Of a stretch of DNA of 58,222 nt, positions 1-58,222 are shown piece after piece (the stretch's first letter is position 1; each line of letters opens with the position of its first letter). This stretch comes from Rhodanobacteraceae bacterium. Its GTDB lineage: Bacteria; Pseudomonadota; Gammaproteobacteria; Xanthomonadales; Rhodanobacteraceae. The notes under the pieces were generated by a model. That model was not told the origin of the DNA, did no database searches, and was given only the letters and a program-made list of their open reading frames with translations. Made by a program: the position numbers and the translations under genes. Location: the NCBI GenBank assembly GCA_004299705.1, contig SCQS01000024.1, positions 1 to 58,222 of the forward strand. Direction: 5' to 3'.

Positions 1-186
1 CATCCTGCTGGAGCAGACCGATGAATGGGCCGTCCAGCGTGCTCGCTACATGCCACGCGAGACGCTGGGCGACGTCACGGATCAATCCGCCGCCGAGTTG
101 CCCGCCATGGCAAACTGACCACCGCCGCTCAAACCTGCCCGGCATCGCCGAGACCAGAAGCTACACCACGCGGTGGGACACAATCT
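1..186 (+). mobile_element. IS256-family element, 3' end (truncated by window edge)
   Basis: The left edge holds the last codons of a Mutator/IS256-type transposase followed by about 68 noncoding bases ending in an IS terminus near position 185-186. The same terminus, from the transposase stop to the tip, recurs in inverted orientation at 58102-58222; the two agree up to base 186 and then diverge, which defines the boundary. The tip read inward (GATTGTGTCCCACC, then GTGTAGCTT) fits IS256-family ends as I know them. The IS ends 25 bases before the stop of the first host gene. Confidence 0.75.
2..118 (+). CDS. IS256-family transposase, C-terminal fragment
   Basis: Partial gene; only the last 38 codons are in the window, with the stop at 116-118. 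The fragment contains EQTDEWAVQRARYM, typical of the C-terminus of IS256/Mutator transposases, where the consensus is close to LLEQNDEWAVQRRYM. The catalytic DDE core would lie upstream, outside the window. I infer family membership from this tail and from the terminal repeat behind it. The 5' part is missing because of the window edge, not because of a visible mutation. Confidence 0.75.
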   Translation: MLLEQTDEWAVQRARYMPRETLGDVTDQSAAELPAMAN

Positions 187-210: not shown

Positions 211-2034
211 TCAAGCAGGTACGACGTCGAACGCGATCGTCAGGCGATAGTCTTCGGGACCGCCCGAGAAGGGGACAGTGCCGTGCCAGAACCAGGAAGG
301 AAACAGCACCAGCAAGCCCGGTTCGGGGCGCAAGAAATATTCGGGCGGGGTCGGCGGGGTGGTGGGAAAAGCCGGCTCGCCGAATTGCAGCCAACCCTCG
401 CCGCCGTGCTTTCCGAGGGTACACGGGATATCGATGTAGCAGGCCGACGACAACCAGCCGTCGGGGTGAAAGTGGTTGAAGTGGTAGCCGTGCGGACGCA
501 GGCGCACGGACCAAATGCCCTTGATCTGGTAACGGCCCGTATTGCGTCGGCGCAATGGGCCGTCGCCGCTGCCGATGGCCTGCATGTAGCGCCGGACCGG
601 CCCGTCGATGGCTTGCGCGAACGCGCGGATTGCCGGGTCGCCGGCGTGCTGCAGTGCCAGGTCCACTTGGGTTCCGTTGCGCAAGGACTGAGCGATGGGG
701 TGGGCGTACGATGTGTGCAGTTTGAGTAACCCGCGCGCGAGATCATCGAGATAAGCAGGTAGGTTCGACCAGCCGGCCGGGGTGTCGATGATGCCGGGCT
801 GTACGAAGCGGCCATAGTCGTAACGTGCCTGGTACCGCGGGTCGCCAAGCATCCGCCACGCCGTGGCCTGCAACGCCAATGCAAGTCCGTCATTCGAGTC
901 GAGTGCGAGCAGCCTGTCGCTCAATTTCAGGGCCTTTTGGGGGTGGCCGGCAGCCAACAAGGCATTCCCATAGGTGGCAAGCATCAAGGGATTATCCGGC
1001 GCCGCTTTCCATGCGCGCTCGGCGTGTGTCAGCGCACGGGCACCATCGACCTTGACAGCCGTTTGCGCGGCTGCGACGTGCAAGGCGGGGTCGTCGCCCA
1101 TTTGCGCAAGTGCGGAATCCAACACTGCAAGTGCGACTTCCGGCCTGCCCGCGGCTTCCATCAGCTTGGCCTTGAGGATGCGTAGTGGCAACATCGCGGG
1201 GGCAGTGCGCAACGATGCATCGATCTGTGTCGCCACGGCGTCGACATCGCCGGTGCGCATCCACAGTGTCTCCACAAGATTCACATGCGCCTGGACGTAG
1301 TTCGGGCTCAGGCGCATCGCCACTCGAAATTCCGATTCTGCTTCTTCGAGCCGCCGCTGGCCAAGCAAGGCGCGTGCCAGGACGAAGTGCGAGTGTGCGC
1401 CGCCGTCACGGCGATGTCTTAGGGTGCTGCGTATCACTTGCTCGGCGGCGGCGTGTTGCCCATCATCGGCGAGAGCAGCCGCGAGTCCGACTTGTGCCGA
1501 ATTGTTGCCGGGATCGGCCGCGACGGCCTGACGGAAAGCCGGGATGGCTCGCGTGTAGTCTGCCAGCGACAGCAGCGCATGGGCACGCAGCAGCAGCAAG
1601 CCGGGAGTCGCCTGTGCGCCGCGGATAAACTCGTCGATGAGTTGGAGGGCTTCTTTGGCACGCTGCTGCGCGAGTAAGGCCTGCGCTAGGGTTGCGGTCG
1701 CGGGCTGGTGCCGTGGCTCAATCGCAAGCGCCTGGCGCAACGCGGCTTCAGCTTCCTGCAGCCGCCCTTGAGCCGCGAGCACCTCGCCGAGCAGGGCGAG
1801 TGACGAAGCATTGTCCGGTTCCAGTCGCAGCGCAGTGTGCAGCGCACGTTCGGCTGCAGCGAGATCGCCGCAATGCAGAATGGCACCGCCCAGCAGCCAA
1901 TGTGCCCTTGCCACATTGGGGTTCGTTTGCAGGAAAGCCTGCAAGACGCGTCTCGCCTCGGCGAATTGGCCGGCCTGCATCAGACGGGCTGCTGAGCTCA
2001 ACCGTTCTGTCGTCGCGGAGGCGGAATCGGACAT
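211..2034 (-). CDS. TPR protein with C-terminal 2OG-Fe(II) oxygenase domain
   Basis: 607 residues. Roughly residues 10-390 are tandem tetratricopeptide repeats (for example LLGGAILHCGDLAAAERAL, then further A/L/G-spaced helical pairs). The C-terminal ~110 residues match the putative 2OG-Fe(II) oxygenase family often fused to TPRs: an HFHPDGWLS metal-binding segment near residue 517, a distal WFWHGTVPF His near 583 and YRLTIAFD with the likely 2OG-binding Arg. It probably hydroxylates a protein or peptide held by the TPRs; the substrate is unknown. No signal peptide, so cytoplasmic. It is divergent from the TPR-sulfotransferase at 2199 and belongs to the same locus. Start ATG at 2034; no strong ribosome site is visible. 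Confidence 0.8.
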   Translation of the reverse strand: MSDSASATTERLSSAARLMQAGQFAEARRVLQAFLQTNPNVARAHWLLGGAILHCGDLAAAERALHTALRLEPDNASSLALLGEVLAAQGRLQEAEAALRQALAIEPRHQPATATLAQALLAQQRAKEALQLIDEFIRGAQATPGLLLLRAHALLSLADYTRAIPAFRQAVAADPGNNSAQVGLAAALADDGQHAAAEQVIRSTLRHRRDGGAHSHFVLARALLGQRRLEEAESEFRVAMRLSPNYVQAHVNLVETLWMRTGDVDAVATQIDASLRTAPAMLPLRILKAKLMEAAGRPEVALAVLDSALAQMGDDPALHVAAAQTAVKVDGARALTHAERAWKAAPDNPLMLATYGNALLAAGHPQKALKLSDRLLALDSNDGLALALQATAWRMLGDPRYQARYDYGRFVQPGIIDTPAGWSNLPAYLDDLARGLLKLHTSYAHPIAQSLRNGTQVDLALQHAGDPAIRAFAQAIDGPVRRYMQAIGSGDGPLRRRNTGRYQIKGIWSVRLRPHGYHFNHFHPDGWLSSACYIDIPCTLGKHGGEGWLQFGEPAFPTTPPTPPEYFLRPEPGLLVLFPSWFWHGTVPFSGGPEDYRLTIAFDVVPA

Positions 2035-2198
2035 GCAGTCAAGGTGTTGCGGAAGGGGAATAGGTAAAACGGGAATGTTCTGCTGGCGCCGTGAGGACGA
2101 CGTGGGATGTAATGGGCTGATGCACGCGTGAATCAGGAAAACCTAGCAGGCAGCTGCATGTATAGTCTAGTGTCGCAAACCAAAGGCACGCCGATCCG

Positions 2199-4037
2199 AT
2201 GTCCGAAAATTTGAGCGGCCCTCTTGACGCGCTTGTCGCGAAGGCCGAACGTGGGGAATTTCTGCAAGCCGAATGTGCGGCACGTGATTATCTTGCACGG
2301 CGACCCGATGACGAAATGGCGTGGAGCGTTCTTGGCTACAGCCAGTTGCAGCAGCGACGCGTGAGCGAAGCTGCCGAGACGTACCAGGAAATCGTCAAGC
2401 GGTTTCCGGGCAATCCACTCCACTGGAATAACCTTGGTACGGCCAGACGTCAAAATGGTGAATTGCACGACGCCGAGAAGGCCTATGCCAAGGCACTGCA
2501 ACTGCAGCCGGACAACCCGCAGTTTGTTGCCAACATGGGACTACTTTACCTCGAATTGAAACGGGTGGTCGCGGCTCGAGACTGTCTGTGGCGCGCGGTT
2601 CAGCTGGATCCGACGGATTACGAAGCGCGTATCTTCGGATGTCAGATGTGCCTCGAGTGTGGGGATGACGATCGAGCCGGAGAGATTCTCGGGAATTGGC
2701 AAGCATGGAAAGAACAGGTTGGTGGTCCGTTGCGGGTAGAGCTCGCCGCGATGCTGTTGCGGACTGGGCGCAATGAAGAAGGCGAGGCACTGCTGCGCCA
2801 GCAACTGACCGACCCGCAATGCAGCGACATGGCACGCGTACGGTTGGTGGTGACACTTGAACGGTTCAACCGTCTGGACGAAGCGCGTGGCATGGCTGAG
2901 CAATTGCCCGAGCCCGCGTCGGTGACGGATCCTGACCTTCGCGGCGAAATCATGGAGGCTCAGGCGATCATGGCCGCGCGCGGCAAGGACTCGGCACACG
3001 CACGCAAATTGCTCGAAAAACTGCTTGGTGAGCCTGGGGCTGAGCGCCGGGACGTTATGACCTGGTTCTTATTGGCCAAGTTGTGCGACAAACTCGATGA
3101 TACCTCGGCGTGCATGGAGTACCTGCGGCTCGCCCACGAATCCCAGATGAACCTCGCGGTTCAGTTGATGCCGGAGCTTGCCCAACCCAGCGGTGACCCC
3201 ATGGACATCACCCGTTACGCCGTAAGCGAAGCCGAATACCGCAACTGGAAGGCGGTTGATGCACCGACGCTCGAGGATTCGCCGATCTTCGTCCTCGGCT
3301 TCCCGCGTTCCGGCACCACCATGCTCGAACAGATGCTGGATGCGCATCCCGACATGGTGTCGATGGACGAGCAACCCTTCGCACAGCGTGTGGTCGAGGC
3401 GATGCAAGCTATGCAGTTGCAATATCCCGAGCAGCTAGGCGAGCTTGGTTCTGCGCAGTGCGATCAATTGCGCGACATTTACTGGCGCGCAGTCGCGCAA
3501 CTCGTGCACTTGCGACCGGGACAGCGCCTGGTGGACAAGAATCCCCTGACCATGCTGAGACTGCCACTACTGGTGCGCATCTTCCCGAACGCGAAGATTA
3601 TTTTCGTCGTGCGCCATCCGTGTGATGTCGTGTTCAGCAATTACATGCAGCACTTCAATGCTCCGGCCTACATAGCGTTGTGTTCTACGCTGCAGAGATT
3701 GGCGAGCGGTTACGCGGCTGCGATGCGGTTCTGGAATCGGCACGTCGAATTATTCAGGCCGAAGGTATTCGAGTGGCGTTATGAAGAAGTCGTTCGCGAC
3801 TTTGATGCTCACGTGGAACAACTTGGCACATTTTTGCAGCTGGATGACACCGAGCCGCTGCGCCGGTTCAGCGAACACGCAAAACGCAAGGGGTACATCG
3901 GCACGCCGAGCTACACACAAGTCGTGCAGCCTGTGTACGCTAGTTCAATCGGGCGCTGGCATCGGTATCGTGGGTACTTCGCACCGGTTCTGCCGCTGCT
4001 CGAGCCTGCCATGCGGCACTGGGGTTATGATGCCTGA
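2199..4037 (+). CDS. TPR-containing sulfotransferase
   Basis: 612 residues. The N-terminal ~330 residues are TPR-like helical repeats. The C-terminal half is a PAPS-dependent sulfotransferase: GFPRSGTTMLEQML near residue 366 is the 5'-phosphosulfate loop, and FVVRHPCDVVFSNYM near 470 is the 3'-phosphate motif. The tail SSIGRWHRY is typical of bacterial TPR-sulfotransferases and resembles the end of tyrosylprotein sulfotransferase-like enzymes. Expected reaction: transfer of sulfate from PAPS to a hydroxyl; the acceptor is unknown. The stop overlaps the start of the 2OG oxygenase gene at 4027, so the two are probably translationally coupled. Cytoplasmic, no signal peptide. Confidence 0.85.
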   Translation: MSENLSGPLDALVAKAERGEFLQAECAARDYLARRPDDEMAWSVLGYSQLQQRRVSEAAETYQEIVKRFPGNPLHWNNLGTARRQNGELHDAEKAYAKALQLQPDNPQFVANMGLLYLELKRVVAARDCLWRAVQLDPTDYEARIFGCQMCLECGDDDRAGEILGNWQAWKEQVGGPLRVELAAMLLRTGRNEEGEALLRQQLTDPQCSDMARVRLVVTLERFNRLDEARGMAEQLPEPASVTDPDLRGEIMEAQAIMAARGKDSAHARKLLEKLLGEPGAERRDVMTWFLLAKLCDKLDDTSACMEYLRLAHESQMNLAVQLMPELAQPSGDPMDITRYAVSEAEYRNWKAVDAPTLEDSPIFVLGFPRSGTTMLEQMLDAHPDMVSMDEQPFAQRVVEAMQAMQLQYPEQLGELGSAQCDQLRDIYWRAVAQLVHLRPGQRLVDKNPLTMLRLPLLVRIFPNAKIIFVVRHPCDVVFSNYMQHFNAPAYIALCSTLQRLASGYAAAMRFWNRHVELFRPKVFEWRYEEVVRDFDAHVEQLGTFLQLDDTEPLRRFSEHAKRKGYIGTPSYTQVVQPVYASSIGRWHRYRGYFAPVLPLLEPAMRHWGYDA

Positions 4038-4641
4038 CCGAACAACGAGCTCATCGGTTGCGACCGCAGCAGACCTACGCCACTACGTGCGTTGGTACGA
4101 CGATTCGTTGCCGGTCGCGTTTTGCGAGAAGATGATTGCGGCGTTCAGGCAGGCCACTGCTAATCATGTCAAGCGTGAGCGTGGCTGGCGCGCAGGTCTT
4201 GAAGAGAGTGCGTGGACCGAACTTGACATCACGCCGTTGGCCGATGCGGCGTTGAAGGAATTTTTCACGCACAAGATCAACGAATCCCTTGCGCGCTACA
4301 ACGATGACGTGGGGTTGCCAATTCTAATCCCCGGATCGTCTCTGCTCGCGCCTCTTCGGATCAAATGCTATTTGCCGGATGCCGGTGAGGGATTCCAGTT
4401 GCATTTCGACTCGATCGGAGAGGTGGCGAATCGATATCTGGTTTTTCTCTGGTATCTCAACGATGTCGAGATAGGTGGCGAAACCGAATTCAGCGGCCTT
4501 GAACTGGAAGTGCGCCCGAAAGCAGGACGCTTACTGATGTTCCCGCCGTACTGGATGTATCAACACAGCGGACGGCCGCCGGTATCGGGTGAAAAATTCA
4601 TCCTGTCAACTTACATGCTGTTCCCAATGGTGCAACTTTGA
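4027..4641 (+). CDS. 2OG-Fe(II) oxygenase, prolyl-hydroxylase-like
   Basis: About 204 residues. A double-stranded beta-helix 2OG oxygenase: QLHFDSIG near residue 126 gives the HxD pair, YQHSG near 180 the distal His, and GEKFILST a Lys at the usual 2OG-binding position. FLWYLNDVEIGGETEF is typical of small stand-alone prolyl-4-hydroxylase-like enzymes. Two adjacent ATGs (4027 and 4030) overlap the end of the upstream sulfotransferase gene; a longer reading frame upstream is only overlap with that gene. It is clearly paralogous to the gene at 7809-8399, with near-identical C-terminal architecture (LMFPPYWM.QH). Hydroxylation before or beside sulfation is the natural inference; substrate unknown. 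Confidence 0.8.
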   Translation: MMPDRTTSSSVATAADLRHYVRWYDDSLPVAFCEKMIAAFRQATANHVKRERGWRAGLEESAWTELDITPLADAALKEFFTHKINESLARYNDDVGLPILIPGSSLLAPLRIKCYLPDAGEGFQLHFDSIGEVANRYLVFLWYLNDVEIGGETEFSGLELEVRPKAGRLLMFPPYWMYQHSGRPPVSGEKFILSTYMLFPMVQL

Positions 4642-4651
4642 CTCGCACCGA

Positions 4652-6193
4652 CTACTGATCCTCGCACTTGAATCTCAGCAGCTCCGGGAGGTATTGAGTG
4701 TAATTTCTCCAACGCCCGACGGAGCGGGCGTAGATCGGCTGCCGAACCTGCCACGCACTGGCAGTGCTGACGCCGGAGGCTGGCTGGCTGATGGCTTGCC
4801 CTTCGGCCGGCGGGAAGTCAAGCCATGCCGCGAGTTCAGAAATAACCGTGTCCGGTCTGTGCACCAGCGTTTCGTAATCCACCGCGCGGATTGAATCTCC
4901 ACACAGGTCGCGCCAGCGTTCCATCAATCTTTCGCAATCTCGCATCACGAGCGTGATATCGTCGAAATCGTAGGCATAGCCCTGCACTTCCTCATCAAAG
5001 GACTGCATCCACAGGGACAAGGCGGTATCACGTGCATTGCGCCTGCAGTGGATAACCTTGGCATTGGGAAACAATGTTAGTGCCAGGTCGATGTAGCGGA
5101 AATTGAGCGGTTGTTTGTCGATGAACCAGCACATCTCATTTGCATCGTCTTGTCGAAGTTGCGTGACGTAGGTCTTGGCGGCACGCTGGAGCGTGGTACG
5201 GTTCGAATTGCCTACGAGGTCCGCCTGCTGTGCCAGTTCGGCCAGCCAGCGAGACTCACCGCGATTGCATACCATGGGGCGACGTGCGAGGAGTTCCGCT
5301 ACCAGGGTGGTGCCAGAGCGAGGGACGCCCACCACGAAGACAGGAATGAAATTCGATTGCGGTTCCAGTCCGCAAATGGCAGCGCTGGCATTAAGGCGCG
5401 CCTCAACAGCTCGCCGCCACTGCTTTCGCGTCCATTTTGTAGTGGCGTGGGCGATGGCGTTGGCTTGGCGTGAGTGCGCTGCGGCCTCTGCAAAATCGCC
5501 GATGTCATCGTTGGCCTTGGCCAACGCGAACAAAAGAGTCGAGCGCGCCTTGTCACTCAGATTGCCACGGGTCAGGTAATCGTGAAAACGTACGAAGTCG
5601 GGATGCTGCGCGTCGTGGTAGCGCTGCATCTGGGCAATACCGTGTGGTATGTGCCATTCACAGGCTTGTGGGGCGTGGTCGAGTGCGAACAGGTAGTGCT
5701 CTCTGGCGCGTCGGAATTCACCCAGTTTGAGTTCCAGCATCCCGGCGTATGCGTGCAGCCTGGCCTCGTCCGGAATTGCCTGGATGGCGCGCTCGACGAT
5801 TGCTTCGGCATCGCGCGCATGGTTGCAGGCGTCAAGAAGCTCGACAGCTTGTATGACCAGTTCCGTATCGTGGCTTGGATGTTCAAAGAAGGAGCGTATG
5901 GCCGCCGCCGCCGCCCCGCTCCGGGACTGGGCAATAAGCATCCGCGCCAGTGCGAACATGACCCCCGCATCGCGCGGACGTTCGGTCGATAGTTCCACCA
6001 ATAGCGCCTCCGCGTTTGGTTGGTGGCCAGTTTGCATGCAGACTCCGGCCAGCAGGCGGCGTAGTTCGAATGAGCGTGGATATTTCCGAAGGGCCTGCAA
6101 GGCTGTGGATTCCGCTTCGACATACTTGCCACGCAACATCAATGTACGCGCCAAGTCCAGCCATTCTTGCTCGGCATTTGCGCTGAAAGCCAT
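4652..6193 (-). CDS. TPR-containing sulfotransferase
   Basis: 513 residues. TPR repeats cover roughly residues 1-250. The sulfotransferase domain starts at VVGVPRSGTTLVAELL near residue 290 (5'-PSB loop), with IHCRRNARDTALSLW near 382 as the 3'-phosphate motif and SVGRWRNY near the end. Likely PAPS-dependent transfer of sulfate to an unknown acceptor. It is the last gene of a tight four-gene minus-strand unit (9770 down to 4652); only three bases separate it from the upstream sulfotransferase gene. It converges with the 2OG oxygenase at 4027 with a 10-base gap and no visible terminator. Confidence 0.85.
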   Translation of the reverse strand: MAFSANAEQEWLDLARTLMLRGKYVEAESTALQALRKYPRSFELRRLLAGVCMQTGHQPNAEALLVELSTERPRDAGVMFALARMLIAQSRSGAAAAAIRSFFEHPSHDTELVIQAVELLDACNHARDAEAIVERAIQAIPDEARLHAYAGMLELKLGEFRRAREHYLFALDHAPQACEWHIPHGIAQMQRYHDAQHPDFVRFHDYLTRGNLSDKARSTLLFALAKANDDIGDFAEAAAHSRQANAIAHATTKWTRKQWRRAVEARLNASAAICGLEPQSNFIPVFVVGVPRSGTTLVAELLARRPMVCNRGESRWLAELAQQADLVGNSNRTTLQRAAKTYVTQLRQDDANEMCWFIDKQPLNFRYIDLALTLFPNAKVIHCRRNARDTALSLWMQSFDEEVQGYAYDFDDITLVMRDCERLMERWRDLCGDSIRAVDYETLVHRPDTVISELAAWLDFPPAEGQAISQPASGVSTASAWQVRQPIYARSVGRWRNYTQYLPELLRFKCEDQ

Positions 6194-6196
6194 TGC

Positions 6197-7777
6197 TCAA
6201 CCTGAAAACGGCCTCAACCCCAGCGCGGCACGCAATGGGTCTAGCAGGGATCCATAACGTACCGCGCGGGCGGTGTCTGAACGCAAGGGCTGGCGTACTT
6301 GCATGGCACTCGGCGTGCTTACATCGCGTTGGGTCTCGTGAAAGTGGAGGCAATTTTCCTCGAATCGCAAGCTGCAAAAATCCAGCAGTGCACGGATGGC
6401 CTTCTCGGGTTCGGCGATCAGATCTTCGTAGATCAACTCGTGGATATGCGCGGGATGAAGGGAATGCCAATGTCTGATGCTGCGGTCGAAGTCTCGCCAG
6501 TACGCTGCAAGGCCCTCGAATGTCCGCGCGTACTCGTTATTGTCGAGGTGCTGGCGGTAGCATGAGAAGCAAGTTTCCAGGGGGTCGCGTCGACAACAGA
6601 TGATCTTTGCAGCCGGCAACATTGCTCGTATCGCGCCGATGTAATACCAGTTGGCTGGCAATTTATCTGTGAATATCGGCCTGCGTTGACGCCAGAGGGA
6701 GGTGCGTTGAAGGTACCGTTCGCCGAGTCGCTTCCAATCCCCGGGTTGCATTTGGGACGTCCAAACAGGATAAGGCGATCCCCGGCGATGCGATTCTTCG
6801 GTAAGGACTGCCGGAATATCCGGCAATTCTCCGGGGCCTTCGACCGAGGAATGTGATGCGAGGATTTGCTCGATCAGGGTTGAGCCAGATCGCGGCAAGC
6901 TGACGATGAAGATGACGTTGTGGCCGGCGGCTGAATCGGGTGAAGGTGGGGGGGAAGGCGTGAAGGCGTCGAGGATCATCGAGATGCCATCACTGAAAGC
7001 TTGTGCATCCCATGTCCTTCTACGACGTGCATTGGCGTGTGCCTGCCTCAGGGCGACAAGAGATTCGGCATAGCGACCGTGGTCATCCAGGGCTTTCGCG
7101 AGCGCAAGTCCCATGGCGATCGTGTCGCTGTCATTGGCGCGGCTGTCACGCATTGCGTGCCGCATTTGCTCGATGTCGCCGAGTGAAAAACGCATGGTCT
7201 TGAGGTCGGCTAGCCCCCACCATGCCATTCCACTCCAAGGTTGCTCGGCGGTGATCTTGCGATATTCCACGGCAGCCTGTTCGAAATGGCTTTCCGTGCG
7301 CAACATGTCGCCTAGCAATATACGTGCCGGCATGTAGTGCGGGTCGAGATCCGTTGCACGCCTCAACGCCGTCGTCGCCTCCGAGCGACGCATGCAGCGC
7401 GTCAGCATCACCCCAAGATTGAACCAGGCGATCGCAAGATCCGGCTGTAATCCACATGCATGCCGCAGTGCATCGATCGCCGCGTCGAATTCTCCCGCCT
7501 GCCCGAGAATCGTCCCCAAGGTGTTGTAGTAAAGGGGATCATCTGGACGCTGCGCGAGCGCACGCCTCATCGAAGCAACTGCGCCGGAAAAATCGCCGCG
7601 CAGGTTCAGGATGCCAGCGTGCAGGCGCAGGATTTCGGGATGGTTGGGGTGGGAGGCCAGCAATGGGGCAAGTCTTGCCATAGCCAGGTCGGACCCTCCT
7701 GTTTCGATCGCCTGTGCGGTCGCCATCACTTGTTGTGCCGCGTCCATGCTTAGTCCGTGCAGACGAGAAACCACCAT
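6197..7777 (-). CDS. TPR-containing sulfotransferase
   Basis: 526 residues. TPRs span about residues 10-270 (for example YYNTLGTILGQAGEFDAAID). The sulfotransferase domain contains FIVSLPRSGSTLIEQIL near residue 296 and ICCRRDPLETCFSCYRQ near 398, with a conserved QVRQPL segment in the tail. The ATG at 7777 is preceded by a strong AGGAAGGAG ribosome site, which decides this start over an internal ATG at 7747. Third gene of the minus-strand unit, 31 bases after the 2OG oxygenase gene. Paralogous to the sulfotransferase at 4652 by domain order. Acceptor unknown. Confidence 0.85.
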   Translation of the reverse strand: MVVSRLHGLSMDAAQQVMATAQAIETGGSDLAMARLAPLLASHPNHPEILRLHAGILNLRGDFSGAVASMRRALAQRPDDPLYYNTLGTILGQAGEFDAAIDALRHACGLQPDLAIAWFNLGVMLTRCMRRSEATTALRRATDLDPHYMPARILLGDMLRTESHFEQAAVEYRKITAEQPWSGMAWWGLADLKTMRFSLGDIEQMRHAMRDSRANDSDTIAMGLALAKALDDHGRYAESLVALRQAHANARRRRTWDAQAFSDGISMILDAFTPSPPPSPDSAAGHNVIFIVSLPRSGSTLIEQILASHSSVEGPGELPDIPAVLTEESHRRGSPYPVWTSQMQPGDWKRLGERYLQRTSLWRQRRPIFTDKLPANWYYIGAIRAMLPAAKIICCRRDPLETCFSCYRQHLDNNEYARTFEGLAAYWRDFDRSIRHWHSLHPAHIHELIYEDLIAEPEKAIRALLDFCSLRFEENCLHFHETQRDVSTPSAMQVRQPLRSDTARAVRYGSLLDPLRAALGLRPFSG

Positions 7778-7808
7778 TGCTCCTTCCTCAGGCCTTGTTC
7801 GATGCGTG

Positions 7809-8399
7809 TCAGAACAAAAGGTAAGTGGAAATCATGTATTTGTCGTTGGATCGCGGCGGCAAGCCCGCGTGCTGAAACATCCAATAGGGGGGGAACATCA
7901 ACAGGCGGCCCTGCCGTGCCTCGATACGCAGCCCCAAGTCGCAGAACTCTGTCTCGCCGCCTTCGCTTACATCGTTGAGGTACCACAGAAACACCATGTA
8001 ACGGTTCGAACAGTAATCCAAGGCGTCGAAGTGGGGTTGGAAGCGGTCCCCCGCCTCTACGGAATAACGTTTGACACGCAGGTTCTCAAGTCGATTGCGC
8101 GCCGGTATCGGCAGTGTCAATGCCACCCGCTCGTTGTAGGCGGCGAGGTATCGCACGGTCTGCTCGCGGAAGAACGCCTCGAATGAGGGATCAGCCACTT
8201 TGGTCACGTTGAGTTCTGTCCACGTGCTCTCTTCGATCCGGGCCATGGCACCCCGACCATTGCGCGTGTGAAAACGCGCAAGGCGGTTGAACGATTCGAG
8301 CAAGCGCTGGCAGAACTCAGGCTCCAAGGCGCCGTCAAAGCACTGCACGTAGCGGGTGATATCGCGTGTCGCTTGGATCTCTGGATCTGGAGTCGTCAT
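7809..8399 (-). CDS. 2OG-Fe(II) oxygenase, prolyl-hydroxylase-like
   Basis: 196 residues. Same fold and motifs as the oxygenase at 4027: FQPHFDALDY near residue 121 (HxD), FQHAG near 176 (distal His) and NDKYMIST. The shared stretches FLWYLNDV, GGETEF and RLLMFPPYWM make the two obvious paralogues. Both keep all expected iron ligands and so look catalytically competent. Second gene of the minus-strand unit, nine bases after the TPR/cupin-like gene and before two sulfotransferases. Likely modifies the same class of substrate as its neighbours; I cannot name it. Confidence 0.8.
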   Translation of the reverse strand: MTTPDPEIQATRDITRYVQCFDGALEPEFCQRLLESFNRLARFHTRNGRGAMARIEESTWTELNVTKVADPSFEAFFREQTVRYLAAYNERVALTLPIPARNRLENLRVKRYSVEAGDRFQPHFDALDYCSNRYMVFLWYLNDVSEGGETEFCDLGLRIEARQGRLLMFPPYWMFQHAGLPPRSNDKYMISTYLLF

Positions 8400-8408
8400 G
8401 CGCCTTGT

Positions 8409-9770
8409 TCAGGCAAGATCCTGCAGTCGCGAATCGAAATCCACGACCGAGGTGGTCAGCGCGGTCAATGCGTCGCGTTCCAAGGAAGAAATACCCGGGT
8501 TCCAAACCTCAACAACCAGCGCGCGTGCCGGGCCATCGCTCGCTGCGTAATTGAATCCAAAGCTTGGATCGAACGCCAGTGCATTTCCTGCGTGCAGTTG
8601 TTTGGCTTCTCCGCCGACCGAAACCCGCAATGGAGCGCTTCCCTCGAAAGCTACAACAATCATGCAGAAGGCATTGGTACGTCCAACACGAATTGACGTA
8701 GTTGTTCCGGAAGGCATATCCAGTACCACCACATCCGGGGCATAGTTTGGGATGCGCACGAGAGGCGCTTCGTCGACCAGGTTGCGCAGTCCAAGGGGCC
8801 AAGATTGAATCGACTCTTGAGGAATGCCACGCTGGTACAATGGTACCGAACGTTGGTGCTCGCCACTAGCATCGGCAATGCGAGTCGTCGTCAAGGCAGT
8901 CAGGCTGAAGAGGGCGGGGGTAGTGTCCTCCTGCGCCGTGCTGCCAATGCAGCGATCAAGTGTGCCCACGCGACAGGTGGCGACAACGCGCGCTGCCCAG
9001 TCGCAGAGCCAGTCAAACGCAGAGGTGTCGAGAAAGCGAGTCACGCCGAGATCCGGCACATACAGAAAGGTTGGTCGTTGATGCGGGTCGGCCGGTGTCG
9101 CAAGCCGTTCGTTCAGGTAAACAGCGAGAGCCGTGTCGACGCGGCCGAGCCGCGCGACATTGATGCCGTGGCGAAAAGGCTGCAGGGCGTCATCGAATAA
9201 CTTGTGCCTGCCTGCGTCCACATATTGCATCGCATGCTTCACAAGTTGGCGCAAGCCTGGCTCCGTCGTCGAGTCGTTCTGCCACAGCCCATGGGTCTGG
9301 GCGTCGATGATGGCTCGAAAATATTGAAGCAACGCCATTTCTGGACGTCCGTCCAATTCATACACGTTGGCCAACAACAGGCGTGCCGTGGTGTTGGTGC
9401 CGTGGCTTGATTCGAGGGCGGCCTCGAATACAGAGCGCGCCTCATCCATGCGTTGAGCGCTGCGGTAGGCAACCCCGAGTTCCAGCAGCACCCATGTATT
9501 GCTGCGATCGACTTGGACAGCGTGGCTGAGCAGAGTCACCGCTTCGCTGACTTCCCCTCGTGACAACGCGGCATTGGCAAGGAATCGAAGGGCTTCGACC
9601 TGTTCCGGTTGTTTGTTCGCCACACGCCTGTAGAACTGCTCCGCTTCAGCCAGAGCGCCATGACGTACATGCGTGCGGGCGATTTCGAGATCGCTGTTGG
9701 TTGTGGATTCAAACATGGTTGATGGAGTCGACGCCACCGCGAAAAGTCGATATGCGAACTTATGGCACAT
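8409..9770 (-). CDS. TPR protein with degenerate aspartyl-hydroxylase-like domain
   Basis: 453 residues from the longest start; an ATG at 9716 (beginning MFESTTNSD) is an equally likely start because the TPR region begins just after it, and neither has a clear ribosome site. The N-terminal ~170 residues are TPRs. The C-terminal ~120 residues look like an aspartyl/asparaginyl beta-hydroxylase cupin: the run VGGEAKQLHAGNALAFDPSF then VVEVWNP aligns by eye with the hydroxylase pattern VGGE, G-K-L-FDDSFEHE, DIWHP. The iron-binding His residues are not there (FGFN in place of FEHE, no HxD upstream), so the domain may be non-catalytic. First gene of the four-gene minus-strand unit. Confidence 0.6.
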   Translation of the reverse strand: MCHKFAYRLFAVASTPSTMFESTTNSDLEIARTHVRHGALAEAEQFYRRVANKQPEQVEALRFLANAALSRGEVSEAVTLLSHAVQVDRSNTWVLLELGVAYRSAQRMDEARSVFEAALESSHGTNTTARLLLANVYELDGRPEMALLQYFRAIIDAQTHGLWQNDSTTEPGLRQLVKHAMQYVDAGRHKLFDDALQPFRHGINVARLGRVDTALAVYLNERLATPADPHQRPTFLYVPDLGVTRFLDTSAFDWLCDWAARVVATCRVGTLDRCIGSTAQEDTTPALFSLTALTTTRIADASGEHQRSVPLYQRGIPQESIQSWPLGLRNLVDEAPLVRIPNYAPDVVVLDMPSGTTTSIRVGRTNAFCMIVVAFEGSAPLRVSVGGEAKQLHAGNALAFDPSFGFNYAASDGPARALVVEVWNPGISSLERDALTALTTSVVDFDSRLQDLA

Positions 9771-9989
9771 GATTGTAACAGGCTACTTTGGTGCCCGGAC
9801 GCAGCCGCTACGGCGCCGGCGCTTGCGCTTCTGCGATGAAGAAGCTGCTCGTGCAGATCAAGCTCAAGCCCGCATGCCCAGATGCCATCGGCTATACTCC
9901 AAGTGTCAATTGAAACATGGATGGCGACGACTTCAGGTTTGCTTGATCGTCGCGCAGTGCGAAACTAACGTGCCACCACATCGTTTGCC
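9771..9989. other. Divergent intergenic region in the sulfotransferase locus
   Basis: 219 bases between oppositely transcribed genes, so it should hold promoters for both the minus-strand unit and the gene at 9990. TATACT at 9893-9898 could be a -10 box for the rightward gene, but no good -35 is placed before it. A 25-codon reading frame (9836-9913, plus strand) lies here; it lacks a clear ribosome site and is discussed as a finding only. Confidence 0.4.
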
Positions 9990-11891
9990 ATGAAGCTCCC
10001 GGTTCCCTTTATTCAATTACCGCTGTTTTTCGATGCCGATCTTCTTGCCGCCGAAGTAAACGCATTGGAAGCATCGCTTTGGCAACCACACCCAAGTGGC
10101 CTTCCTGGCAATACTGCGATTCCCCTGGTTGCCTCCGAAGGTGATCCCAGTCGTGGTGATTTGTTCTCTGGAATCATGCACCCGACCCCGGCTTTGGCTC
10201 GTTGCCATTACCTGCAGCAAGTTCTCGGCGGATTGGGAACGATATTGGGTCGCGTTCGTCTCATGCGGTTGGATCCGGGGGCGGAGGTCGCTCCACATGT
10301 CGATACCAACCATTACTGGAGGGAGCGGGTGCGTGTGCATATCCCGATCGTCACGGATCCTGTTGTTCTGTTCACTTGTGGCGATGCGCAGGTACACATG
10401 GGCGAAGGCGAATGTTGGATTTTTGATACTTGGCGCCTGCACCGTGTGGTCAATCCGGGGAATCACGCCCGGGTGCATCTTGTTGTCGATACGATTGGGA
10501 GCACTGCATTCGGCAAGCTCATCAATGCTGGACGCCCGCACATACAGACGAAGGACGGATGGAATGCGCGCACGGTGGAACCAGGCCTGGGCCAAGGTGG
10601 CTTGGCGGGCGAGTTGATGTTCGAGTCAGTGAATCTGATGTCGCCGCTGAGCTACTGGGAATTGCGCGAACACGTACAGTTTGTGTTGGACGAGTGCAAT
10701 GAACACCCTTTGTTGCCGGTGATCAAGCATTACGCGAACGAATTCGTGATGGACTGGCGGACGCTTTGGTTCCGCTACGGCGCTGATCCGGAGGGCCTCT
10801 CAGAGTTTCGGAGGGTGCTTACGGAATTCCTTGCGCGCATGCAAAGGGTTGGCGGTGACATCTTGTTGAATAACCACACGCAGCTCGCATCGGCGTTTAA
10901 TGGCTTGCTCGGTCAGGCGGTCCGCGGGGCGGGTGATGCGTGTGTCGGAGAGGAAGCCGCGCGTACATCACCGCTTCGCACATTGGTCAAGGTGCGCCCA
11001 AACTGCGAATTCGATCGACCCGTGTTCATTGTTTCTCCACCACGCTCGGGATCCTCGTTGTTGTTCGAAACACTGGCACAAAGCCCCAGCGCGTCGACGA
11101 TTGGTGAAGAAAGCCATGGCATCATCGAGGGGAACACTGCATCCGGCGTGCTGGGTGCGGCAGCGCGCGGTTATGATTCGAACCGGCTAGATGCCAAGGA
11201 TGCCTCTCCTGCTGTCGTTGAGGCTCTCCGCGAGCGTTTCCGCAGACGCGCGTTCAACCGGAACGGAGAGAGACCCACAGGGCGCATCCGGTTTCTGGAA
11301 AAGACGCCCAAGAATGCATTGAGAATACCCTTCTTTGCCGAGATATTTCCGGATGCGTTGTTCGTTTACCTGTACCGCGACCCGCGGGAAGTGTTGGCGA
11401 GCATGTTGGAGGCATGGGAGTCGGGTGGCTTCAGGAGCTATCCGCAATTGCCAGGCTGGAAGGGCCTCCCGTGGTCGATGGCCCTGACGCCGGGTTGGCG
11501 CGAGCTGATCGGCCAGCCATTACCCAACATAGTGGCTGCGCAATGGCAAGCCGTTACGGATACCCTGCTCGATGATCTTGCTGAATTGCCTGCGGATAGC
11601 TGGATTTCGGTACGTTACGATCGCATATTGGCCAATCCGGATTTTGAGGTTCGCAGGCTTTGCACCTTCTTGGGTTTCGAATGGGATCAAGTGCTCGGTG
11701 GCGGCCTTCCGCTGGCGAGCCATACAGTATCCGCGCCGCGCCGGGAAAAGTGGCGCCAACGCGAGCATGAAGTCCTGCCACAGTTGACCCGAATGGCCAA
11801 GACTGTCGCACGCGCCGAGCAAGCGTCGCATCATTCGCCCAATGGGAATTGGCTGCCCGACGAACCGCGCACACCCACGGTAGCGAAATAG
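9990..11891 (+). CDS. Aspartyl/asparaginyl hydroxylase - sulfotransferase fusion
   Basis: 633 residues with two catalytic modules. Residues ~5-170 are an aspartyl/asparaginyl beta-hydroxylase-like domain: His103-x-Asp105 in APHVDTNHYW, then RVRVHIPI, distal His151 in TWRLHRVVNP and an Arg in HARVHLVVD. Residues ~340-600 are a sulfotransferase: FIVSPPRSGSSLLFETL near 350 and YLYRDPREVLASM near 463. The ~170-residue linker is unassigned. A single chain could hydroxylate and sulfate, or bind one substrate through both modules. Its first module is an apparently intact relative of the degenerate domain in the divergent gene at 8409. Start ATG at 9990. Confidence 0.8.
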   Translation: MKLPVPFIQLPLFFDADLLAAEVNALEASLWQPHPSGLPGNTAIPLVASEGDPSRGDLFSGIMHPTPALARCHYLQQVLGGLGTILGRVRLMRLDPGAEVAPHVDTNHYWRERVRVHIPIVTDPVVLFTCGDAQVHMGEGECWIFDTWRLHRVVNPGNHARVHLVVDTIGSTAFGKLINAGRPHIQTKDGWNARTVEPGLGQGGLAGELMFESVNLMSPLSYWELREHVQFVLDECNEHPLLPVIKHYANEFVMDWRTLWFRYGADPEGLSEFRRVLTEFLARMQRVGGDILLNNHTQLASAFNGLLGQAVRGAGDACVGEEAARTSPLRTLVKVRPNCEFDRPVFIVSPPRSGSSLLFETLAQSPSASTIGEESHGIIEGNTASGVLGAAARGYDSNRLDAKDASPAVVEALRERFRRRAFNRNGERPTGRIRFLEKTPKNALRIPFFAEIFPDALFVYLYRDPREVLASMLEAWESGGFRSYPQLPGWKGLPWSMALTPGWRELIGQPLPNIVAAQWQAVTDTLLDDLAELPADSWISVRYDRILANPDFEVRRLCTFLGFEWDQVLGGGLPLASHTVSAPRREKWRQREHEVLPQLTRMAKTVARAEQASHHSPNGNWLPDEPRTPTVAK

Positions 11892-12006
11892 TAGTGGGTT
11901 CACGTCCTTTGCCCTTGGAGTTCACACGGGCATTTGCGCAAAAGCTCTTACGGTTACCGAAATGCTGCGCCGGCACCGACGTAGCGGGTACCTTGTTCAA
12001 CATCGT

Positions 12007-12870
12007 ATGATTGACTGGTCGCGTATGGGAAATATTCTCTGGCTAGCGTCGTATCCGAAATCCGGAAATACTTGGTTGCGCGCATTCCTTGCGAACCTCG
12101 TTGTTGATCAGAGCACACCCTTGAAACCCAATGAGCTAAGTGAGTACGGGGAAGCAGAGGCAAGCGCAGAGCGGTATACGGAGGTGTCGGGCAGGCCCAG
12201 TACTACACTTGCCGCTGAAGAGCTAGCGGCGTTGCGCTTGCAGGTTCATGCGCTGATTGCACAGCGTGCACAAGGAACTCGACTGGTCAAGACACACAAT
12301 TTCAACGGTAGCTTTCAGGGACATCCCTTAGTCAACTGGCAAGTTACCGCAGGTGCGATTTACGTGGTGAGGAATCCGTTGGATGTGGCCGTCAGTATGA
12401 CGCACCACTTTGGGGTTACGGTCGATGCGGCAGTCGATCGACTCGGGGATGACAGGGTAGTGTCGATCAATGACACGGCGCTTGCCAGTGACTTCATCTG
12501 CTCGTGGTCGACACATGTGAAGAGTTGGGCTGACATGGCCGAACGAGTGCCAGGCAAGATCATCGTGTTGCGATATGAGGATTTACTTGAAAGACCGGCG
12601 AAGAATTTCGCGAAAGCAGCCAAATTGATTGGGCTTGGAAAGGACAAGGCCCGTGTAGCGCGCGCGATTGCACATGCCAGGTTTCAGACGCTTTCTGCGC
12701 TGGAAAAGAAGCATGGCTTTGTGGAAACGGTTGATGAGAAGACCAATTTTTTCCGCCGAGGCTGTGCCAACCAATGGCGCGAAGCATTGAATCGCGATCA
12801 GGTGGAGCGCATAGTCCATGATCATCGAGAGCAAATGCTGCGCTTTAGATACATGCCAGCTGGCTACTAA
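12007..12870 (+). CDS. Sulfotransferase, family 1 (no TPR)
   Basis: 287 residues from ATG 12007. A single-domain sulfotransferase: ASYPKSGNTWLRAFL at residues 14-28 is the 5'-PSB loop of the cytosolic sulfotransferase-like family, VVRNPLDVAVSM near 120 is the 3'-phosphate motif, and VLRYEDLLERP near 190 is also conserved. FFRRGCANQWREAL near the C-terminus matches the usual RKGxxGDWKNHF-type PAPS-binding segment. In-frame starts at 11962 and 12025 are possible. It follows the fusion gene by 115 bases on the same strand and closes the locus. It is closer to sulfotransferases of small molecules or lipids than the TPR enzymes are; acceptor unknown. Confidence 0.8.
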   Translation: MIDWSRMGNILWLASYPKSGNTWLRAFLANLVVDQSTPLKPNELSEYGEAEASAERYTEVSGRPSTTLAAEELAALRLQVHALIAQRAQGTRLVKTHNFNGSFQGHPLVNWQVTAGAIYVVRNPLDVAVSMTHHFGVTVDAAVDRLGDDRVVSINDTALASDFICSWSTHVKSWADMAERVPGKIIVLRYEDLLERPAKNFAKAAKLIGLGKDKARVARAIAHARFQTLSALEKKHGFVETVDEKTNFFRRGCANQWREALNRDQVERIVHDHREQMLRFRYMPAGY

Positions 12871-13022: not shown

Positions 13023-14465
<1,443 letters not shown>

Positions 14466-58127: not shown

Positions 58128-58222
58128 CTTCTGGTCTCGGCGATGCCGGGCAGGTTTGAGCGGCGGTGGTCAGTTTGCCATGGCGGGCAACTCGGCGGCG
58201 GTCAGTTTGCCATGGCGGGCAA
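58102..58222 (-). mobile_element. IS256-family element end, inverted relative to the left edge
   Basis: Bases 58102-58200 are the reverse complement of the IS end at 1-186 (tip AGATTGTGTCCC, then the transposase stop region). The last 22 bases (58201-58222) repeat 58169-58190 after a 10-base spacer; the left copy lacks this second unit. The transposase would read on the minus strand, and only a few codons remain. Confidence 0.75.

Follow-up and report, generated by a model that had tools for sequence, protein, structure and literature searches.

A nine-gene sulfotransferase and oxygenase cluster of Rhodanobacteraceae is linked to TonB-dependent receptors and may modify an outer-membrane protein before export

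What do five sulfotransferases and a similar number of oxygenase-like proteins, encoded side by side in one bacterium, act upon? The question is raised by nine adjacent genes, g1 to g9 from left to right, at positions 211-12870 of a 58,222-nucleotide stretch of DNA (the window) from a Rhodanobacteraceae bacterium (assembly GCA_004299705.1, contig SCQS01000024.1). The window is an entire contig (C12 in our labelling) of a 3.6 Mb genome in 78 contigs. According to the open reading frame (ORF) lists and Pfam, the nine genes carry only three types of domain, i.e. tetratricopeptide repeats (TPR), sulfotransferase domains and 2-oxoglutarate (2OG)-oxygenase-type domains, as an earlier note written from the sequence alone had stated. 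Our answer is that the locus is not a chance collection but a linked system, whose relatives recur beside genes for TonB-dependent receptors (TBDR). It could well be a cytoplasmic protein-modification system dedicated to a co-encoded outer-membrane protein, a proposal that we believe about as much as we doubt it.

The linkage was seen in two samples. A profile of the small oxygenases g3 and g6 was scanned against species genomes, and 114 places were confirmed, the best 80 of which were used; the gene was called in 76 of them (four had no call), and a further 21 lacked a 5 kb flank, leaving 55 full-flank loci. As these are the places most similar to g3/g6, the linkage found there leans to close relatives; named relatives in the scan include Rhodanobacter, Dyella, Rudaea, Xanthomonas and Steroidobacter. 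Genes outside the window were called with a simple ORF caller, and short or odd genes may be missed in all neighbour counts. Within 5 kb, a TBDR was found in 46 of the 55 loci, a TPR-sulfotransferase in 48, a domain of the aspartyl hydroxylase (AspH) type in 38 and a g8-like fusion of an AspH-type domain with a sulfotransferase in 13. Two gene orders recur: one runs from the TBDR through a TPR-sulfotransferase to a g3/g6-type oxygenase, and the other comprises an AspH-sulfotransferase fusion, a TPR-AspH protein, a g3/g6-type oxygenase, a TPR-sulfotransferase and the TBDR. Every gene type of the window is present in this receptor-linked set, the g1 and g9 types rarely.

For the second sample the sulfotransferase served as anchor. 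Of 397 Pseudomonadota genomes sampled, 105 have a match to the g2 sulfotransferase domain at E <= 1e-20 (the window's own genome is one of them), and 40 of the 105, the better-scoring ones, were taken. Excluded were G218, whose match is near a contig end, and two genomes of the window's family, G005 and G014; a third of that family, G013, stayed in. L221 was dropped for want of a sulfotransferase call, which leaves 39 loci. When the receptor label was given by a receptor hidden Markov model (HMM) or a TonB-box-like pattern, a TBDR was the immediate neighbour in 10 of the 39, as against 1 of 180 control genes lying at least three genes from any such enzyme (Fisher 1e-7). Pfam backs nine of these ten receptors and the tenth (L223, from the window's family) rests on the HMM; in two more loci (L204, L213) the TBDR is two genes off. 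Other immediate neighbours are a TPS-domain adhesin (L222), an autotransporter (L227), a Big-domain protein (L238) and porins (L234). Pfam was run on six candidate surface neighbours other than TBDRs, two of which (L235, L212) had no match and are not counted, and in the remaining 25 of the 39 loci no surface protein with Pfam support was recognised at this distance. A shared small-molecule ligand would not account for TPR-sulfotransferases standing next to such unrelated kinds of surface protein. A scatter of homologues without conserved co-occurrence, which the earlier note had named as grounds for refutation, was not seen: gene sets and receptor linkage are both conserved, in line with the single system that the note had proposed.

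The same association is seen in the closest relatives of the locus. Among 196 other genomes of the family, g7 orthologues of at least 39% identity occur in eight, with one further fragment (G096); the other matches are mostly relatives at about 30%. Of the nine genomes so found, five (L058, L059, L061, L063 and L066) retain most of g1-g7, including g1 orthologues of 48-71% identity, and in all five a TBDR stands beside g1 or g2, with g2 directly following the receptor in L061 and L063. L061 also retains g8 and g9 (75% and 78% identity), and in L153 and L154 another TPR-sulfotransferase lies on the opposite side of the receptor. The stretches of 19-20 kb taken from the other four genomes contain only the g6/g7 pair of the cluster, and one of them, L064, has a receptor 4.8 kb away.

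Of the 23 TBDRs of the window's own genome, 6 lie beside such an enzyme set, counting the window's receptor across the insertion sequence (IS) gap described below, and all three Oar-type receptors are followed by a TPR-sulfotransferase. These three receptors are 54-57% identical to each other and their TPR-sulfotransferases 51-61%, and the unrelated L024 pair diverges on both sides (15-18% for the receptor, 21-23% for the enzyme). Over 57 pairs, receptor and TPR-sulfotransferase distances are correlated with a Mantel r of 0.81, which 0 of 999 permutations reach, although this figure partly reflects species history and counts one own pair (L022) twice. From these sequence distances the receptor and its TPR-sulfotransferase can be said to diverge in parallel. 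The sulfotransferase lies downstream on the same strand in 50 of the 57 pairs, again with one own pair counted twice. In the L022 pair (G000:C76:27598-30721), the Oar-type receptor gene is in two reading-frame pieces and the TPR-sulfotransferase beside it is intact. In L018 (5318-13630) the receptor that precedes the TPR-sulfotransferase has an OmpA domain at its C-terminus, and a tryptophan halogenase and a Cupin_8 protein are encoded close to the pair.

The receptor of the window was missed by the earlier note because the contig ends there. The cluster adjoins a TBDR in all five related clusters; in the own genome the receptor and g1 are on separate, repeat-ended contigs. Contig C21 carries the closest counterpart receptor, 77% identical to that of L066, at a distance of 620 bases from its end. 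The final 100 bases of this contig consist of a repeat found at the tips of contigs C34, C62 and C63 too, and they hold, by eye, the start of a transposase-like frame; blastn of the C21 end against the window start gave no overlap. As the C21 tip sequence ends three other contigs too, the join rests on synteny, by which the order in this genome would be receptor, IS, g1. On the window side the contig stops beside g1 in the C-terminal end of an IS256-type transposase (1-117, plus strand). The best tblastn plasmid matches of this fragment have 62-65% identity, and two among the matches listed are annotated as IS256 family transposase; a Pfam scan of it gave no match. Bases 87-150 have copies at the contig's opposite end as well as in two more contigs. 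The contig is thus flanked at both ends by the same repeat (87-150 and 58138-58222), beside the transposase end.

The nature of the enzymes gives an indication of their substrate. The genes g2 (2199-4037, plus strand), g4 (4652-6193, minus) and g5 (6197-7777, minus) each combine TPRs with a Sulfotransfer_3 domain resembling tyrosylprotein sulfotransferase (TPST). For the g2 sulfotransferase domain the nearest solved structures, by sequence and by fold, are TPST1/2. Residues 360-611 align over the length of the TPST catalytic domain (E 1.6e-15; E 5e-16 for the domain against residues 47-306 of the TPST1 chain 5wri_A), and in a PDB sequence search with this domain TPST was best at E 3e-16, followed by CurM at 1.4e-5. 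The AlphaFold2 model of g2 has a predicted local distance difference test score of 92.7 and a Foldseek TM-score to target of 0.74 with TPST, and TPSTs are the only sulfotransferases among the Foldseek matches listed. The g2 TPRs match those of O-GlcNAc transferase and SPINDLY.

The catalytic residues of human TPST1 are R79, E100, K159 and S286, as named in an excerpt of PMC5562738. In the alignment they correspond to R370 (3306-3308), E391 (3369-3371), K447 (3537-3539) and S571 (3909-3911) of g2, all on the plus strand. This Arg/Glu/Lys/Ser tetrad is complete in g2, g4 and g5, and, with identical proteins counted once, in 108 of 110 distinct TPR-sulfotransferases; among the other sulfotransferases of the set 11 of 27 have it whole, and among the AspH-sulfotransferase fusions 0 of 18. 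As for the substrate-binding arginines of TPST that the excerpt covers, R106 is kept in g2, and R102 and R285 are not, by our reading of the alignment. No strongly hydrophobic stretch that could correspond to the membrane anchor of TPST was found by crude hydropathy at the N-termini of g2, g4 and g5. Over the first 45 residues the nine enzymes score 0.33-1.68, as against 2.15 for the receptor, and all nine look cytosolic. The g4 gene is intact in L059 and L061, is cut by the contig start in L063 and is in pieces in L058 and L066. The pieces lie in different frames (L058, 5631-6472), and in L066 (6998-8509) g4 and g5 are both affected; g1, g2, g3 and g6 are intact there. Because g4 is broken where those four genes are not, it may be the most dispensable gene of the cluster.

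The oxygenases point in the same direction. The genes g3 (4027-4641, plus strand) and g6 (7809-8399, minus) are paralogues with a 2OG-FeII_Oxy_3 domain. Their profile finds prolyl 4-hydroxylases as nearest solved structures (E 8e-11; only the C-terminal half aligns), and the facial triad HxD...H and the basic 2OG-binding residue are invariant (H123, D125, H177 and K187 in alignment A1). The start of g3 is at 4027 or 4030, inside the end of g2; the mechanical ORF begins at 3781. Pfam recognises a 2OG-type domain also in g1 (211-2034, minus strand; TPR and 2OG-FeII_Oxy_5) and in g8.

The earlier note had counted five oxygenase-type proteins, and four of them are borne out by these Pfam matches; the fifth, g7 (8409-9770, minus strand; TPR), is AspH-like by predicted fold and lacks the residues that bind the metal. 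Its C-terminal domain has no Pfam match, but the first ten Foldseek ranks for its AlphaFold2 model are all occupied by human AspH (TPR and oxygenase), and the catalytic domain alone fits AspH better than the whole chain does (5apa, TM-score to target 0.71). Both metal-binding histidines of AspH are gone in 10 of 10 distinct g7-type proteins, whereas 47 of 48 other distinct AspH-type proteins of more than 350 residues keep both (alignments A2 and A4). The g7-type gene adjoins a g6-type oxygenase in all ten cases. Judged by this loss of metal ligands, g7 is a pseudo-oxygenase, and it might serve as a substrate-binding or recruiting partner of g6. A polypeptide substrate is likely for the system, since the nearest solved relatives act on polypeptides (TPST for g2, AspH for g7, prolyl 4-hydroxylase for g3/g6); the earlier note had supposed a peptide or protein as well.

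The mechanism that we propose for a cytoplasmic system modifying the co-encoded receptor is as follows. The receptor chain, still cytosolic and unfolded, would be bound by the TPR superhelices. The enzymes g2, g4 and g5 would transfer sulfate from 3'-phosphoadenosine-5'-phosphosulfate (PAPS) to side-chain hydroxyls, most likely those of tyrosine, and g3, g6, g1 and the N-terminal domain of g8 would hydroxylate other residues such as Pro, Asp and Asn, with g7 recruiting the substrate for g6. After this the Sec pathway would export the modified receptor for insertion into the outer membrane, and its sulfates could there change which ligand, phage or bacteriocin binds. That the substrate is a protein and specifically the receptor, that sulfation and hydroxylation meet on the same substrate, and which residues are modified, in what order and to what purpose, is what we infer.

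A number of observations, besides the share of species history in the Mantel figure, weigh against this proposal. Nine full-flank loci out of 55 lack a TBDR within 5 kb: five of them contain only a g6/g7-type pair, L125 has no partner, and L138, L143 and L144 have a TPR-sulfotransferase. Similarly, 29 of the 39 sulfotransferase-anchored loci are without an adjacent TBDR, and g1-type and g9-type genes are rare in the full-flank loci (4 and 3 of 55). An overall enrichment of tyrosine in the receptors was considered and rejected: its content is 4.7% in the sulfotransferase-linked receptors and 4.5% in the others of the own genome (p 0.39), and tyrosine sites in an acidic context are slightly commoner (1.20 vs 0.76 per protein, compared without statistics), where 59-64 linked receptors from many genomes are set against 17 from one genome. 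The whole-chain superposition of g7 on AspH is poor (TM-score about 0.35, root-mean-square deviation 18), and the alignment behind the g7 model contained 16 active relatives. Finally, the oxygenase domain of g8 (9990-11891, plus strand; an Asp_Arg_Hydrox and Sulfotransfer_3 fusion) is nearest to L-proline cis-4-hydroxylase, and g9 (11962-12870, plus strand; Sulfotransfer_1) is nearest, in the PDB sequence search, to the cytosolic SULTs and Teg12. The match of g8 to TPST is weak, the TPST serine is not conserved in it, and the tetrad is incomplete in both g8 and g9; by these residues the two may act on another substrate.

With respect to composition, cysteine is enriched in the sulfotransferase-linked receptors (1.0% vs 0.4%), with eight conserved positions (L152 included). 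All three unlinked members of the clade used for comparison share five of the eight, and most of the conserved cysteines are therefore probably features of the clade.

The foremost rival, which we find doubtful, is that the enzymes tailor a secreted peptide or metallophore that is sulfated, hydroxylated and taken up again by the linked receptor. Receptor linkage would fit this, and the methanobactin operons, as described in PMC3621798, do combine a sulfotransferase with a TonB-dependent transporter (MbnS and MbnT). Moreover, TPST has been assayed on short peptides, as a passage of PMC5562738 shows. The difference is that methanobactin operons have a PF00685-type sulfotransferase and a precursor peptide, whereas nothing precursor-like was found here (MbnB and MbnC were not searched for). 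Comparison of 67 small ORFs from between the genes of the window's locus and of the five related clusters gave 0 cross-locus matches, although a precursor could lie elsewhere in the genome, and no peptide synthetase or exporter was recognised by eye among the called genes of the cluster. The adhesin-like proteins, autotransporter and porins that TPR-sulfotransferase relatives also adjoin would not be accounted for.

Action on an envelope glycan or lipid, the receptor importing breakdown products, is in our opinion rather unlikely. Bacterial sulfotransferases that modify glycans exist, g9 is SULT-like, and one own receptor pair (L019) has NamZ-like and sugar-kinase-like genes (by eye) in its cluster. 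Nevertheless, the catalytic domain of the TPR-sulfotransferases is nearest to TPST, with no glycan sulfotransferase among the matches listed, and the own-genome sulfotransferases in glycan-looking surroundings (L023 and L025; by eye) are without TPRs. More improbable still is a role of the enzymes in processing or detoxifying some compound that the receptor brings in: the receptor-then-enzyme order of 50 of the 57 pairs would suit this, but a TBDR delivers to the periplasm and the enzymes look cytosolic, and the 28 neighbour families met most often include no inner-membrane transporter that was recognised by eye. A chance collection of horizontally acquired genes, to which the lower GC content of g2-g9 and the IS element at the border could be attributed, is refuted by the conserved co-occurrence of the gene sets and the receptor in many genera, and by the same site beside an adenosylhomocysteinase-like gene in the window, L058, L059 and L061, and we leave it next to no chance.

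Modification of the receptor before export can be compared with several known systems. TPST is a Golgi-resident enzyme with a membrane anchor; the g2 catalytic domain aligns over its length with all four catalytic residues kept, but g2 is predicted to be cytosolic, has an N-terminal OGT-like TPR superhelix and is linked to receptor and oxygenase genes. Bacterial protein sulfation is known to us only from RaxST and RaxX of Xanthomonas. There a bacterial sulfotransferase also acts on an exported polypeptide, as stated in an excerpt of PMC6637879, but the present locus has TPR fusions, oxygenases and a receptor. The analogy with RaxST drawn by the earlier note turned out to be weak: no RaxX-like peptide and no RaxA/RaxB-type secretion genes were recognised by eye in the locus or the related clusters, on which no Rax profile was run. 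Human AspH appears, in the model of g7, to share the two-domain architecture of TPR and double-stranded beta-helix oxygenase, but the g7-type proteins are bacterial, predicted to be cytosolic, without both metal-binding histidines and different in domain arrangement. The likeness of g3 and g6 to prolyl 4-hydroxylases lies in the profile match and the invariant HxD...H and K, a proline substrate being putative.

HMW1C-type enzymes glycosylate co-encoded adhesins in the cytosol before export; they would share a cytosolic enzyme and a co-encoded surface protein with the present system, and differ in adding sugar, not sulfate or hydroxyl. Iyer and Aravind reportedly treated peptide-modifying dioxygenases in a paper of 2010. 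In Caulobacter, a PKHD-type hydroxylase is numbered next to a TonB receptor and both rise when iron is limiting and in a fur mutant, as reported in a part of PMC3751524, so the adjacency of oxygenase and receptor as such is not new. In the open-access literature searched (most subscription journals lie outside it), no description was found that links TPR-sulfotransferases with TonB receptors.

A broader form of the proposal, which we put forward tentatively and would sooner doubt than accept, is that many Pseudomonadota have an equivalent of Golgi tyrosine sulfation in their cytosol. TPST-like enzymes guided by their TPRs, with the help of peptidyl hydroxylases and of a pseudo-oxygenase as adaptor, would add sulfate and hydroxyl groups to outer-membrane receptors, adhesins, autotransporters and porins before export, and the resulting surface code would tune the recognition of ligands, phages and bacteriocins. 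If this is true, sulfation is a common way of modifying outer-membrane proteins, many unexplained TPR-sulfotransferase and 2OG-oxygenase genes beside TonB receptors gain a function, and an exact substrate is named that can be checked by mass spectrometry. Such loci could also supply bacterial tyrosine sulfotransferases as tools.

The sulfate donor was considered as well. Reading by eye through the window's ORF lists, which were cut at 150 and 300 aa and to which no profile was applied, revealed no PAPS gene, as the earlier note had observed. On contig C8 of the own genome, CysD- and CysNC-like genes lie, by eye, 5.6 kb downstream of a receptor/TPR-sulfotransferase pair, so PAPS can probably be made by the host. 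In genome G055 (L060) such genes are 2.8 kb from the g6/g7 pair. PAPS genes as regular partners were rejected: relatives of CysD/CysNC were found in two places only (L019, and L060, which is the same as L070) of 120 stretches.

In its layout the locus agrees with the earlier description. TPRs are present in five proteins (g1, g2, g4, g5, g7) and sulfotransferase domains likewise in five (g2, g4, g5 and g8 with Sulfotransfer_3, g9 with Sulfotransfer_1). There are two compact units, one formed by the overlapping g2 and g3 and the other by g7-g6-g5-g4 with gaps of 9, 31 and 3 bases. The lower GC content reported for the block is confirmed from 2 to 14 kb (56-59%, as against 61-70% beyond) and does not extend to the g1 stretch (positions 1-2000, 64%). 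The adenosylhomocysteinase-like gene at the right border (13023-14465, minus strand) was named by eye and lies outside the system.

Lone g6/g7 pairs occur in L060, L062, L064, L065 and L069 (Rhodanobacter and allies); their surroundings often include genes that resemble, by eye, those for laccase-domain proteins, RluD or ClpB. A secreted-looking family of about 317 residues is encoded in 19 loci (e.g. L061, 428-1435, and L152, 8457-9410), often near the receptor; the one member scanned had no Pfam match. A methyltransferase-like gene (Pfam, one member) was found near the 2OG-oxygenase or TPR-AspH gene in seven loci, including L104 (10567-11715), and this family is a possible third kind of modification.

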